NCBI GenBank assembly: GCA_016841765.1
Contig: JAENYN010000021.1
Location: 1-64,000, forward strand
Direction: 5' to 3'
Origin: Guptibacillus hwajinpoensis
GTDB lineage: Bacteria > Bacillota > Bacilli > Bacillales > Bacillaceae_O
Length of the DNA stretch: 64,000 nucleotides
This document shows, one piece after another, positions 6,938-52,581 of the stretch. How positions within the stretch are numbered: position 1 is the stretch's first letter; every line of letters begins with the position of its first letter. Made by a program: the position numbers and the translations under genes. Under the pieces are notes generated by a model. It had not been told where the DNA came from. It saw nothing but the letters and a program-made list of their open reading frames with translations, and did not search any database.

Positions 6938-8773
6938 ATGCCGCTATCCGCAGCTGAAATCATCAACCTGCCGGCCATGCAGGCAGCGAGGGTTGTCGCA
7001 GGAAAAGACAGTCTCATAGATAAAAAAGTTGAATGGGTGTCTGTGCTGGAGACACCGGTGGAGAACTTTGTTCGGAAAAATGAGTTTGTGCTCAGCACTG
7101 GAATCGGATGCGGGCAAAGTGAAGCGTGTTTGCGTGATTTTGTGAAAGAGGTGTTTGACTCCGGTGCCACGATGCTTGGGCTTGCAACCGGACGGCATAT
7201 TTTTGACATACCGCGGAGTGTGGTCGAGTTTGGTGAACAGCATCAGTTTCCGATTATCGATATTCCGTGGGAAATCCGTTTTACTGATATCTCGAAAAGC
7301 TGCATGGATATTCTGGATCGCCATCAAAAGGAAAAATATAAGAGGTCAGAGGAACTGCAGCAGCAGCTTTTGCAGCTTGTGCTTTCAGGAGGGGACTGTT
7401 CGGATATCTCGAGGTTCGCCAGAAAAGAACTCGATCTCCCCATTTTAATAACCGATCAGAACGGAAAAGTGAAAGGGAAAGCCGGATGCCCGGATAAATT
7501 GGTCGAGAAGTGGGAGGGACATGTACTGGCGGGCTCCAATGCAGGAAATTCATCCCTGAATGAACGGGAGCGCGAAATTGCGGAGATGAAGCGGGGTGAA
7601 TTGCTGCAGGCACAGAAGGAAGCCGGTTATGCTGGGATTAATCCTTTGGAATTGTCAGATCCCCAATCCGACCGGAATCAGAGCTCCCCCATTGAAACCC
7701 ATCCCCTCCAGAAGAAACTTGAAGCAATTGACCTGGACGGGGTGTCGGCTGTGAAAATGAAAATCCAGTCTGCAGCTGTCAAGCAGGGCTGGCTTGTTGT
7801 TTTTACTTCAGACGAAAAACGGGACGTTGATGACTCTGAAGTGAGTATCCTCGAGCATGCCGCGACTGCTGCGGCTCTGGCTTTTTTAAAAGACAATGCC
7901 ATCGCTGAAACAGAAATGCGGCTGAAGGATGACTTCATCTGGAGCATAGCGAGCGGCGATATCCCGGATAAAGACCGGATGGTGTCACGGGGGAAAATGC
8001 TCGGATTCAATCTCAGTCTTCCCTATGTGTGTATTGTCGGTGAATTGGAAAATCTGCCCGAATTGTTTGAAGCTGCAAAGCCTGACTTTAAATCGTACGG
8101 GCACTGGTTTGAAAGCATGATGTATTACGCTGTGGACGAAATCGTGTATGCCGGTGAGCTGGTGGAGAAGCGGCTATTGATAACATCGGAAAAGAACCGG
8201 GTCATCATCTTTTTCGAAGCGCCCCAGACCCCTGGCACTCAACCGGTCACCCAGTTTCTGGATTTAGTGGAAAGGCGCTTGAAAAATTTCCTGCCCGGTG
8301 TTTTGCTGTCATGGGGCATCGGCAGCGAGGAAGATGGGATGCACGTTTTCAAGGAAAGTTATGAAAAAGCGAAAACCGCTCTTGATCTCGGCAAAAAACA
8401 AAAGGGTCCGGGGCACATTGTCAACTACGAGGATACGAAGATGAACCGCCTGCTGCTAAGGCTTTCAGATGACAATGAAGTACAGGAAATCATTAAGTCA
8501 ACCATTGCGCCGATTCTCCAATATGATAAAAAGCGGCCGATGGATCTTGTCGGCACGTTCGCAGCTTATCACCGCAACAAAGGGAATGTCAGCCAGACTG
8601 CAAGGGAACTGAATCTCCATCGCCAATCCCTGCTGTACCGGCTGAGGAAGATCGAGTCACTCACCGGGCTTTCCCTTGTGAATCCGGATGATGTGTTTTT
8701 GCTGGATCTCAGCATCAAAATTTGGTCGATCGGGGTTCAGCCTTCAGAGGGGAAGCCGAAGTCCCGAAAATAA
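6938..8773 (+). CDS. PucR family transcriptional regulator
   Basis: 611 residues. An N-terminal PucR-type sensor domain (about 5-130, with VEWVSVLETPVENFVRKNEFVL), a GAF-like middle, a degenerate GGDEF-like CdaR region (about 350-480), and a C-terminal PucR HTH (about 545-600) with GNVSQTARELNLHRQSLLYRLRKIE described by its core N-V-S-Q-T-A-R-E-L-N-L-H-R. AGGAGGATCC precedes the ATG. These proteins activate catabolic genes on sensing a nitrogenous substrate. The three-gene catabolic operon 140 bp downstream on the same strand is the obvious target, and the inverted repeat at 8806-8838 is a candidate operator. Confidence 0.88.
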   Translation: MPLSAAEIINLPAMQAARVVAGKDSLIDKKVEWVSVLETPVENFVRKNEFVLSTGIGCGQSEACLRDFVKEVFDSGATMLGLATGRHIFDIPRSVVEFGEQHQFPIIDIPWEIRFTDISKSCMDILDRHQKEKYKRSEELQQQLLQLVLSGGDCSDISRFARKELDLPILITDQNGKVKGKAGCPDKLVEKWEGHVLAGSNAGNSSLNEREREIAEMKRGELLQAQKEAGYAGINPLELSDPQSDRNQSSPIETHPLQKKLEAIDLDGVSAVKMKIQSAAVKQGWLVVFTSDEKRDVDDSEVSILEHAATAAALAFLKDNAIAETEMRLKDDFIWSIASGDIPDKDRMVSRGKMLGFNLSLPYVCIVGELENLPELFEAAKPDFKSYGHWFESMMYYAVDEIVYAGELVEKRLLITSEKNRVIIFFEAPQTPGTQPVTQFLDLVERRLKNFLPGVLLSWGIGSEEDGMHVFKESYEKAKTALDLGKKQKGPGHIVNYEDTKMNRLLLRLSDDNEVQEIIKSTIAPILQYDKKRPMDLVGTFAAYHRNKGNVSQTARELNLHRQSLLYRLRKIESLTGLSLVNPDDVFLLDLSIKIWSIGVQPSEGKPKSRK

Positions 8774-49502: not shown

Positions 49503-49525
49503 TCATCAAGGAAAGGAGAGACGAG

Positions 49526-50266
49526 ATGAGTAACAATCCGTTGTCCCATCAGATTTATAAAATGATGGCAAAAAAAGAAATTAAAAAAGTCAAAGCGGAC
49601 ACCGATCTCACGTTACTGAACAAACCGGCAAATGAGTGGAATGTGGCGTTTCTGACGACGGCGGGTGTCCATTTGAAGACACAGACACCGTTTGATGTCG
49701 AAGCTGGCGACAATACGGTCCATCTGATTCCGGGTAACGCGGATGTGTACGATTTGATGATCACACACACGCATTACGACACGGAAGACGCGGAGAAAGA
49801 TGTCAATTGCGTTTTCCCGATCGAGCGTCTCCGTGAATTGGAAAGCGAGGGGGTCATAGGCTCAGTATCAGAAGTCCACTTCGGTATGATGGGATACATT
49901 CCTGATACGGAAAAGCTGAAGCAGGAGAGCATACCGCTCATTTTGAAAGAATTGAAAAAAGCGGAAGTGGATGTCCTGCTCGCATCGCCTGGCTGATATA
50001 TTTGCCATCAATCCGTGGGATTGATTCAGAGAGCCGTAGAAGCAGAAGGAATTGCCACCGTGTCGATCAGCCACTTGCCTGATTTGACGGAACGCGTGAA
50101 AGTGCCGCGTGCGCTTCATTTGAAATTTCCGCTTGGCCGCAGTTTCGGTTCTGCCGGACGGGATGATCTGCAGCGGAAGATTGTTCTTGATATGTTGAAA
50201 GCTGTGAGTGAAATCGAAGAGGCGGAGACGATCCAGAAACTGCCTTATCGATGGAAAAGGGATTGA
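49526..50266 (+). CDS. selenoprotein, PrdB/GrdB-type reductase-like (Sec at UGA)
   Basis: 246 residues if TGA 49994-49996 is read as selenocysteine (U157). ATG after AAAGGAGAGACGAG. The first part (TTAGVHLKTQTPFDVEAGDNTVHLIPG, DVNCVFPIERLRELESEGVIGSVSEVHFG, described by ends) follows PrdB of D-proline reductase, and the frame stays open after TGA with QRAVEAEGIATVSISHLPD and VPRALHL, also PrdB-like. The UGA sits in ASPG-U-Y-I-C, the U-x-x-C redox motif of the family. A hairpin begins ten bases after UGA. The PrdA partner and a Grd set are absent here, so the substrate is unknown. A Cys homologue-type enzyme with a nonsense mutation is the alternative, but the position argues against it. Confidence 0.82.
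50007..50025 (+). promoter_or_regulatory. SECIS-like hairpin for the selenoprotein UGA
   Basis: ATCAATCC (50007-50014) and GGATTGAT (50018-50025) pair perfectly over 8 bp with a GTG loop. It starts 10 bases after the UGA and puts the loop 18 bases away, with G first in the loop, as in bacterial SECIS elements read by SelB. Confidence 0.75.
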
Positions 50267-50329
50267 TGTTAGCTGGTTTAGGATTTTGGATTGGCCGGTT
50301 GGTTTGGTTGTAGGCTGGCGGCAGGGTTT

Positions 50330-50564
50330 GCGTGAGACGTTCACCGAATGGCGTGAAAGGTTCGGTGAACGGCGTGATCCCCCTGTTATGGCGCGATATG
50401 TGGGGAGTTCGGCGTGAATTAGCCCGAGTTGCGCGTGAATAGGCAAGAGGTTGGCGTGATTTTTTACAGATGCGGTGTGATAGCGTCAGCCGTATATCGG
50501 TCCGTGATATATCTGGCGTGAAATAGGCTGTGAAGGGCGTGATTCCTGCAATTTTCGGCGTGAA
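50330..50564. repeat. 21-bp-periodic GGCGTGA repeat array
   Basis: GGCGTGA(A/T) or one-base variants recur at 50330, 50350, 50371, 50390 (GGCGCGA), 50411, 50432, 50453, 50474 (GGTGTGA), 50515, 50536 and 50557. Nearly all spacings are 21 bp, and one gap is 41. Only the heptamer is conserved; the other 14 bases differ. No gene supported on either strand. Confidence 0.8.
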
Positions 50565-50678
50565 AACACAGCCGGTTGACGACTTCCCGCAGCCAATCAG
50601 CATGAAAATAGTCTCTTTTTAAGTGAAATTCACTTAAAATCGCTGATGAGATGCCAGTTTTGCGCAGCAACCAGGCCG

Positions 50679-50772
50679 TTACTGTCCAGTTTTCCGGGTT
50701 TACTGTCCAAATTGAGGAGTTTACTGTCCAAATCCGCAGCTTTACTGTCCAAATCTCAACCGTTACTGTCCA
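50679..50772. repeat. 21-bp-periodic TTACTGTCCA repeat array
   Basis: TTACTGTCCA occurs exactly at 50679, 50700, 50721, 50742 and 50763, five copies with a 21-bp period; mostly followed by A-A-(A)-T-C/T. It uses the same period as the adjacent GGCGTGA array but a different core. The minus-strand frame (I/N-W-T-V-x repeats) is a by-product of the period being seven codons. Confidence 0.9.
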
Positions 50773-50862
50773 ATTCAGCAACTCCCCGGGTCCAAACTCG
50801 AATAAAACAATCATGCACCCTTTAAACCCGACTAAACTAATAAGAATAATGGAGGTTCGACG

Positions 50863-51855
50863 ATGAATAAACGAGTAATAGCTAGCCTTGCAGCCCTTGT
50901 TTTTTTAGTAATTGGTTTTTTCACTTATGATTATTTCACCGGGATCAAGGCCCAGGAAGTCAATGTCAGTGCCCAGCAGAAGAAAATCAATGAGTATGCG
51001 AATCCTAAAGCATTCATCACACCTGAACAGCTGAAGGCATTACAGGATGATAAAGAGAAGGACGTCGTTGTTATCGGAACGATGAATTCAAAAGACAAAG
51101 CGATTCCGGGATCATTCGTTTTATGGCGTGATGATTACCAGGGATCTGAAGGGCATGAATACGGCGGCATGGCAAGTCCGAAGGAAAAAATGGAAGAAAT
51201 GTTGAGCAGCTTTGGCGTGAGCGAGGATACGACCATTGTCACTTATGCAGCCAATGACCAGCATGATTCAGCCCGCCTGTTTTGGCAGCTGAAGATGCTC
51301 GGCCATGAGGACGTACGTTTTCTGGATGGGGGCATCAACGTATGGATCGGCGAAGGGTATGAAACGGCAGAAGCTGCCCGTCCGGGTGACCGCCCGAAAA
51401 CAGAATACAAAGCTCCTGATTTCAATGAAGAAGCATTCAATGCGGACATTGATGAAGTTGCTTCTGCGGTAGAAAACAACGATGAATTTTATCTGCTGGA
51501 TACCCGCAGTGAAAGCGAAGAAACCGGCAGTGATACGAAAAAAGGTGCATACGGACCGGGAAAAATTAAGGGGTCAACGTGGATCGAGTATTCCCAGGCC
51601 ACATCGGAAGAAGGGACGCTAAAATCGAAGGATGAGCTTGAGGACTTATACGGTGAAGTCATTGAGTCCAATAAAGAAGTGATCAGCTATTGCCAATCCG
51701 GGGTCAGGTCCGCCTATACTTGGCTGGTGCTGACACAGGCGCTTGGCTATGAGCGTGTGCAAAACTACGATGGTTCATGGATCGAATGGAGCTATAACTC
51801 TTATGAACAGGCTGATGAGGGCATCAAGTCAAAAGTTGAGAACGGCAAGTTTTAA
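50863..51855 (+). CDS. membrane-anchored tandem rhodanese (sulfurtransferase)
   Basis: 330 residues, ATG after AATGGAGGTTCGACG. An N-terminal membrane anchor (about 5-25, IASLAALVFLVIGFFTYDY), then two rhodanese domains outside the membrane. Domain 1 (about 50-175) has the degenerate YAANDQHDSARLFW in place of a catalytic Cys loop; domain 2 (about 195-325) has the active C277 in YCQSGVRS and YDGSWIEW. Thiosulfate sulfurtransferase-like; related enzymes also handle selenium. It precedes the TVP38 gene by 24 bases in one operon and follows the selenoprotein gene across the repeat field. No lipobox seen. Confidence 0.87.
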   Translation: MNKRVIASLAALVFLVIGFFTYDYFTGIKAQEVNVSAQQKKINEYANPKAFITPEQLKALQDDKEKDVVVIGTMNSKDKAIPGSFVLWRDDYQGSEGHEYGGMASPKEKMEEMLSSFGVSEDTTIVTYAANDQHDSARLFWQLKMLGHEDVRFLDGGINVWIGEGYETAEAARPGDRPKTEYKAPDFNEEAFNADIDEVASAVENNDEFYLLDTRSESEETGSDTKKGAYGPGKIKGSTWIEYSQATSEEGTLKSKDELEDLYGEVIESNKEVISYCQSGVRSAYTWLVLTQALGYERVQNYDGSWIEWSYNSYEQADEGIKSKVENGKF

Positions 51856-51879
51856 ACAAAATGACAGAGGATGATCACC

Positions 51880-52581
51880 ATGGCTTCCAGCAAGCAAGTA
51901 AAGAAAAAAGAAACTATAAAACTTTTGGCTGCGGTCACGCTGATCGCAGCAGCCTTTTTAATCGCCTGGAAAGCAGGGCTGGTGGACGTATTGAAAGATG
52001 TTCGGGCCATGCAGGGTTGGTTTAACGGCTTCGGCTTTTACGGATATATCGTGTTTATTCTTGTTTTTGTCGCCGTTGCCGTGTTTATGCTGCCGGGTTC
52101 CCTCCTTACGATTATCGCCGGTATCACCTTTGGCGCAATCAAAGGAGGCGTCCTTTCATTGCTTGGTGCTACACTGGGCGCCATGGCGGCATTTCTCATT
52201 GCCAGGTATGCCGCAAGGGAATTGATTGTAAAAAAATTTGAAGGAAATCCAATTTTTAAAAAGATAGATGAGGGAGTAGAGAAGAACGGGATCAGCTTCC
52301 TGATCCTCACCCGCCTTGTGCCCGTTTTCCCGTACAATGTCCAGAACTATGCATACGGTTTTACAAAAATTCCGTTCCTGACCTATTCGGTCATTTCGCT
52401 TCTCACGATGGCTCCTGCCGCCTTTGTATATGCGTATATGGCGGGACAAATCGTGGAAGAAGGGGTCTCTGTGAAACTGTTGATCGAGTTTGCGCTGGCG
52501 GGAATCATCCTGTTCCTTGTCTCATTGATTCCGAAGTATATTTCCAAAAAGAAAGGAATCAGCCTGGAGGATTATCAATAA
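51880..52581 (+). CDS. TVP38/TMEM64 family (SNARE-associated/DedA) membrane protein
   Basis: 233 residues from ATG 51880; the ATG at 51871 touches the GAGG SD. Basic N-terminus (KQVKKKETIK), helix about 12-30, then the SNARE-associated domain with AVFMLPGSLLTIIAGITFGAIKGGVLSLLGATLGAMAAFLIARY (described by its ends), the amphipathic KKIDEGVEKNGISFLILTRLVPVFPYNVQNYAYG and final helices. YdjX/YdjZ-like proteins may flip lipids or move anions; function not settled. Co-transcribed with the rhodanese, so they likely act together in the envelope. Confidence 0.87.
   Translation: MASSKQVKKKETIKLLAAVTLIAAAFLIAWKAGLVDVLKDVRAMQGWFNGFGFYGYIVFILVFVAVAVFMLPGSLLTIIAGITFGAIKGGVLSLLGATLGAMAAFLIARYAARELIVKKFEGNPIFKKIDEGVEKNGISFLILTRLVPVFPYNVQNYAYGFTKIPFLTYSVISLLTMAPAAFVYAYMAGQIVEEGVSVKLLIEFALAGIILFLVSLIPKYISKKKGISLEDYQ

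Follow-up and report, generated by a model that had tools for sequence, protein, structure and literature searches.

A PrdB-related gene with an in-frame TGA in Guptibacillus hwajinpoensis: a predicted selenoprotein subfamily and its association with Ydj/Ynj-type genes

The stretch of DNA analysed here (the window, 64,000 nucleotides of a Guptibacillus hwajinpoensis contig) carries on its forward strand a gene for a PrdB-like protein of 246 residues with the motif PG-U-Y-I-C-H-Q-S-V (49526..50266), recognized by matches to TIGR04483 and PF07355 and by its position in a phylogenetic tree. Re-reading of the sequence agreed with the initial annotation, which described a single 246-codon frame running from the ATG at 49526 to the terminal TGA at 50264-50266, with the TGA at 49994-49996 as its sole internal stop. 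This codon, number 157, lies within ASPG-U-YICHQSV and would, if it were not read through, split the frame into ORFs of 156 and 83 amino acids; in view of the relatives and the sel genes discussed below, it is read here as selenocysteine (Sec). A Shine-Dalgarno-like element, AAAGGAGA, was found on the same strand by direct reading 5' of the ATG (49512..49519), and direct reading of the protein revealed no evident signal sequence.

The next two same-strand genes downstream encode a two-domain, YnjE-like rhodanese with an N-terminal hydrophobic anchor (50863..51855, forward strand; PF00581 in two stretches) and a VTT-domain membrane protein of the TVP38/DedA kind that resembles YdjX and YdjZ (51871..52581, forward strand; PF09335, 94 bits). 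The rhodanese has weak similarity to the NCBIfam model ExtH, which is associated with selenite/tellurite operons (57 bits at a cut-off of 200). Between the selenoprotein and rhodanese genes, at 50328-50775, there are families of direct repeats, largely spaced by 21 nt, with a GGCGTGA type at 50328-50546 and a TTTACTGTCCAAAT type at 50679-50775.

The in-frame TGA is a conserved property of this gene. A copy in another genome of the genus is 94% identical and retains the codon, further loci in the order with 54-70% identity each have one TGA, and it is present in 18 of 18 close-clade loci of the order. An alignment-profile scan of named genomes, which overlap partly with those of the order set, yielded 44 loci, all 44 with TGA at the position of codon 157; a contig scan with a single protein query gave no match, and the alignment-based scan found no locus on viral contigs. 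The clade that carries the TGA spans Bacillales, Lactobacillales and Tissierella. Cys homologues, with which the initial annotation proposed an alignment as a check, did not turn up: all clade relatives, more than 50 in number, have TGA and a Cys version was not seen among them, even though the scan patterns used (YICHQSVG and GMMGYIP) are blind to the Sec/Cys difference. When the window gene is compared to the same-genus copy, dN is 0.015 and dS 0.488 on the 3' side of the TGA (dN/dS about 0.03), the dN/dS on the 5' side is 0.037/0.507, and similarity stops at the terminal stop codon. The strong purifying selection 3' of the TGA implies that the second half is translated in the same frame. 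On these comparisons the frame can be taken as confirmed, real and far from chance, and kept with its TGA in relatives. That the TGA is a true stop in a pseudogene or a miscalled TGC/TGT, the objection anticipated at the outset, has a negligible probability and is rejected in view of the same TGA in every sampled clade relative across these three groups and the selection downstream of it, as well as the conserved hairpin and the Sec genes.

The machinery for Sec incorporation, which the initial annotation recommended searching for, was found completely in the genome. A tRNA-Sec gene is located on another contig (G000:C56:22499-22591, where G000 is the window genome), scores 64 bits, which is over the cut-off, and has the anticodon TCA according to ARAGORN; it is adjoined by genes for SelB, SelD and SelA, the last of which exceeds its cut-off. 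In-frame TGA codons also occur in the SelD of this genome (AKSG-U-GCK) and in its FdhA formate dehydrogenase (NRT-U-HAPS). With the conserved TGA and the SECIS-like hairpin, these findings sustain the original proposal of a selenoprotein, and the assignment of 49994-49996 as a Sec codon is strongly supported by sequence comparison. The accompanying statement that selenoproteins are uncommon in aerobic Bacilli did not hold for the order studied: of its 397 genomes, 181 encode a SelA that exceeds the cut-off, and the Sec trait is thus common among these bacilli, contrary to a common assumption.

The putative SECIS-like hairpin of the window was recognized by comparison at 50007..50025 on the forward strand (13-31 nt downstream, counted from the first TGA base) and has a stem of 7-8 bp (ATCAATC(C)/(G)GATTGAT) and a CGTGG loop. 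Among 50 distinct sequences it begins 13 nt beyond the first TGA base and has seven pairs and a loop of five bases, in most cases CGTGG or GGTCG. Standard pairs make up 95.7% of the cells in this set, compared to 6-53% for slid partners, and to a mean of 93.4% and a maximum of 94.6% after shuffling of the 3' letters among sequences. Both-sided changes were found in eleven pair cells in total, including a synonymous double change at pair 5 from A-U to G-C in ten sequences (CAA to CAG for Gln, TTG to CTG for Leu). Synonymous constraint peaks within codons +4 to +10; it is strongest (relative entropy 0.27-0.53) at +4, +6, +8 and +9, and likewise at the GGC that precedes the TGA. The fold energy of the window sequence is not unusual when compared to synonymous shuffles (z of -0.3; clade mean -1.1), so the case for the hairpin rests on the comparison among sequences. 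Seen in this way, the conserved stem-loop just 3' of the UGA is as expected of a bSECIS element and is a putative target of SelB.

Regarding the family to which the protein belongs, the part of the initial annotation that called it PrdB-like was well founded. The UGA falls at the active-site position, in a U-x-x-C motif at the same place as in PrdB, the two proteins are of similar length, and identity between the window protein and the PrdB proteins of plasmid records is roughly 34-41%. However, it is not PrdB itself, since its TIGR04483 score of 200.3 bits (residues 26-245 of 246) is below the equivalog cut-off of 300, and since a tree of 81 proteins places it in a clade of its own (the UYIC clade; 52 rows, support 99/95), separate from a clade of true PrdB (100/100) of which several members have annotated prdA partners; with the lack of PrdA in the genome, this led us to reject identification as true PrdB. 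The two also differ in the motif (AG-U-GTCHR in PrdB, PG-U-YICHQ here), in a loop (FMGGGG in PrdB, MMGYIP here) and in gene context, the PrdB-type surroundings (prdA, prdC, prdD, proline racemase) not being found around the UYIC-clade gene. The PF07355 (GRDB) model matches residues 76-151 with 30.2 bits, above its gathering score of 22, and the GrdB model TIGR01918 gives 47 bits, which is under its cut-off. As compared to protein B of glycine, sarcosine and betaine reductase (GrdB/GrdF/GrdH; PF07355), the C-terminal half is homologous and Sec is likewise part of U-x-x-C, but the window protein is about 190 residues shorter than the models of 431-435 aa and is not in a GrdA/GrdC/GrdE context. 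Further PrdB-like Sec groups are present in the order. By these sequence comparisons, the PG-U-Y-I-C-H-Q proteins form a distinct subfamily within the GrdB/PrdB superfamily that is strongly supported as Sec-containing.

The selenoproteins GrdB and PrdB are parts of the Stickland amino acid reductases of anaerobes, and in proline reductase the substrate amine is bound by a pyruvoyl subunit. The absence of PrdA, noted initially for the window, extends to the whole genome, in which no PF09338 (PrdA/GrdE-type) protein was matched. Counting the window genome, such a protein is absent from 16 of the 17 genomes that carry the gene, which means that the superfamily active site is present here without the pyruvoyl subunit; the exception (G124) has three PF09338 copies, GrdE-type genes located on another contig than the selenoprotein gene. 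Elsewhere in the order, PF09338 proteins were found in three genomes with true PrdB (G150, G015 and G271), where a PrdB of the Cys type adjoins PrdA (locus L064 in G150) and SelA is not over its cut-off, suggesting that selenium-free D-proline reductase exists in the order. A description of the UYIC subfamily was not found in the literature searched, which is no proof that there is none. PrpU of Eubacterium acidaminophilum was considered as a precedent and rejected, as it is an 11 kDa CxxU protein of a glycine decarboxylase operon (PMC4056300).

Structure prediction with 38 homologues gave a model with a pLDDT of 91.6, as compared to 35.5 for a single-sequence fold, and Sec157, Cys160, His81, His161 and Pro155 are invariant in the 38 sequences. 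A Foldseek search of the PDB with the predicted model returned no match at E<=0.001, and a PrdB or GrdB structure was not found by sequence search. The Z values obtained with VIA-align were at most 9.2, against unrelated proteins, and these matches would reflect a common alpha/beta arrangement only. Lacking a confident PDB match, the active site is not comparable with that of a solved enzyme.

The gene had been regarded as an orphan reductase, which is correct in so far as PrdA is missing, but a recurrent set of rhodanese, VTT/DedA, YdjY and YnjBCD genes accompanies it. The gene order of the window recurs in G001 and, more tightly and with a dihydrolipoamide dehydrogenase (LPD)/MerA-like flavoprotein gene on the 5' side, in G124, and a rhodanese gene also follows the selenoprotein gene at loci L040 and L041. 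In Neobacillus, Calidifontibacillus and others, the order is YdjY-VTT-flippase-like-(Sec gene)-YnjB-YnjC-YnjC-YnjD-YnjF. YnjB (439-493 bits, cut-off 203) and YdjY (125-129 bits, cut-off 50) both belong to their NCBIfam families. Variant arrangements occur in Facklamia, Aerococcus, Tissierella and Ammoniphilus. Two Aerococcus genomes have a single run that starts with SelD-YedF-(95 aa ORF)-SelB-SelA-TIGR04282-(Sec gene) and continues with rhodanese-VTT-VTT-TIGR04283-rhodanese-YnjB-YnjC-YnjC-YnjD, and at locus L047 selA lies 1.1 kb upstream of the selenoprotein gene. Glycosyltransferases of the rSAM/selenodomain-associated TIGR04282/TIGR04283 kind adjoin the gene in Facklamia, where they score over the cut-off, and have homologues in the Aerococcus and Tissierella sets; the Facklamia set also holds CcdA- and ResA-like proteins. 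The Sec-assisted organometal (SAO) system (PMC13188914) likewise combines selenoproteins with an ABC transporter, but the importer subunits at the loci studied here are not selenoproteins, no selenoproteins of the SaoL, SaoC or SaoT type were noticed there, and similarity to SaoA is weak (169 vs 360 bits).

In the window organism, linkage is confined to the rhodanese and VTT genes, and YnjBCD is encoded on contig C13. There (L169, G000:C13:34000-52000), a full Ynj operon encodes a Fer4_20/pyridine nucleotide flavoprotein, a CCG-domain protein, a rhodanese, a VTT protein, YnjB, YnjC, YnjC, YnjD, YnjF and an LPD-like protein. The rhodanese-VTT pair of C13 is 65-70% identical to that of the window, and both the flavoprotein and the CCG-domain protein resemble NF045663, a near-Sec dicluster protein. 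With YnjB on another contig, the link in this genome consists of co-occurrence and of the rhodanese-VTT neighbours.

Over the 52 distinct loci of the clade, a VTT/DedA, YdjY or YnjB gene lies at most 8 kb from the selenoprotein gene in 37, and a VTT gene in 36; about 15, mainly from Alkalicoccus and Salipaludibacillus, have no Ydj/Ynj gene within this distance. Within the order, the VTT cluster was found at 9 of 18 UYIC-clade loci, and all 20 loci that belong to other PrdB-like groups lack it (p=3e-4). YnjB is encoded by 125 of the 397 genomes, 69 of which also have SelA, and all 17 genomes with the selenoprotein gene carry both. The link between YnjB and the gene among SelA-positive genomes has a Fisher p=2e-8, a value that overstates its strength as the 17 genomes are related and represent 8 genera, and that includes genomes with unlinked genes, such as the window genome. 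YnjB occurs without SelA in 56 genomes, and together with SelA but without the selenoprotein gene in 52, so the Ynj system can do without this selenoprotein; a further 112 genomes have SelA and neither YnjB nor the gene. The membership of the selenoprotein in a YnjBCD-type system is nevertheless well supported by these patterns of linkage and co-occurrence.

A similar cluster in E. coli K-12 has the order ydjX (DedA)-ydjY-ydjZ (DedA)-ynjA (AhpD-like)-ynjB-ynjC-ynjD-ynjE (rhodanese)-ynjF, in which VTT/DedA proteins, YdjY, YnjB, a permease, an ATPase, a rhodanese and a CDP-alcohol phosphatidyltransferase are brought together as in the loci described above. Two differences are that YnjC of E. coli is one fused protein, and that the place before ynjB, taken by the Sec protein in many Bacillaceae loci, is held in E. 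coli by YnjA, an AhpD-like protein with a CEFC motif. In the literature searched, neither a function for the E. coli ydj/ynj locus nor a tie to selenium was found, which again is no proof.

The gene context leads us to propose, with a probability of roughly 0.7, that this selenoprotein of the GrdB/PrdB superfamily acts as a cytosolic selenol reductase of a YdjXYZ/YnjBCDEF-like uptake/redox system, without a pyruvoyl PrdA/GrdE protein. SelB and tRNA-Sec would recode the UGA at 49994 by means of the hairpin just downstream, and YnjBCD is the candidate importer of a small substrate, which the VTT membrane proteins and the exported rhodanese may help to handle. Since the selenoprotein has no evident signal sequence, it is expected to act on the imported compound in the cytosol. 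In the superfamily, the selenolate serves as nucleophile and a nearby cysteine resolves the intermediate; by analogy to GrdB and PrdB, Sec157 would attack the substrate and Cys160 of the U-x-x-C motif would resolve the intermediate. The selenoprotein could then be re-reduced by the LPD/MerA-like flavoprotein or by a thioredoxin-like partner, as PrdC does for PrdB (PMC6867894). The rhodanese, LPD/MerA-like and thioredoxin-like proteins that go with it point to chemistry of sulfur or selenium, and an organic or oxyanionic compound of one of these elements is the most likely class of substrate.

A more far-reaching possibility, which we advance tentatively and at slightly less than even odds, is that a new selenoenzyme subfamily has taken over the reductase step of the YdjXYZ/YnjBCDEF system in Sec-using Firmicutes and acts on an imported substrate that is foreign to the known GrdB and PrdB enzymes, probably a sulfur or selenium compound. 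It would mean that a branch of the superfamily left the Stickland pathway, lost its pyruvoyl partner and joined a transporter and sulfur-handling set that is uncharacterised even in E. coli K-12, and it would provide a first chemical handle on the ynj locus of that organism. Given the strict conservation of the Sec codon, dependence on selenium offers a simple genetic and biochemical test for this long-uncharacterised locus.

Other roles can be envisaged. It is unlikely, but consistent with the rhodaneses near UYIC-clade genes and with the CcdA- and ResA-like proteins of Facklamia, that the U-x-x-C motif serves to reduce peroxides or disulfides, either of proteins or of low molecular weight, and that the Ynj linkage stems from a common response to oxidative or sulfur stress and not from a metabolic pathway. 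A Sec peroxiredoxin gene (TPV-U-GAQMPSYEDDL) indeed precedes the gene of the related AG-U-PLCHR group at 8 of 9 sampled loci; however, this pairing is not seen with the UYIC clade itself, and the importer YnjBCD, with which the UYIC gene co-occurs, would be superfluous for a general redox protein. Also rather improbable is a function in selenium supply or homeostasis, in which the YnjBCD cluster would import selenium compounds for SelD and the selenoprotein would free selenide. The Aerococcus run with selD, yedF, selB and selA and the weak similarity of the rhodanese to ExtH are in line with such a function, whereas the 56 genomes with YnjB but not SelA, together with the 112 that have SelA and neither of the other two, indicate that neither YnjB nor the selenoprotein is generally needed for Sec use. 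Even less can be said for a stand-alone amino acid reductase that would act, in the absence of PrdA, on an amine such as proline, glycine or sarcosine, for which we see very little chance: homology to PrdB and GrdB and the common U-x-x-C motif would fit, but none of these NCBIfam models gives a score that reaches its cut-off, the clade is separate, the PrdA/GrdE-type protein and PrdB contexts are missing as described, and the GGGG loop of PrdB is replaced.

Some related genes deserve mention besides the proposed selenol reductase. Eight genomes of the order have an operon for two selenoproteins, a Sec peroxiredoxin (DWTPV-U-GAQMPSYEDDL) followed by a PrdB-like protein with VLLTAG-U-PLCHRTV (L058, L066-L068, L070-L072 and L076, each around position 8000). 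Another PrdB-like protein (L073:8082-8735) has two in-frame TGA codons (PA-U-PI-U-HQS) where its relatives have U-x-x-C. Finally, two Clostridiales MAGs carry a second, distant Sec gene with the sequence PV-U-PVCHVSVGH (L121:622-1308 and L122:49-699), separated from the UYIC gene by only a gene for an LPD/MerA-like flavoprotein.
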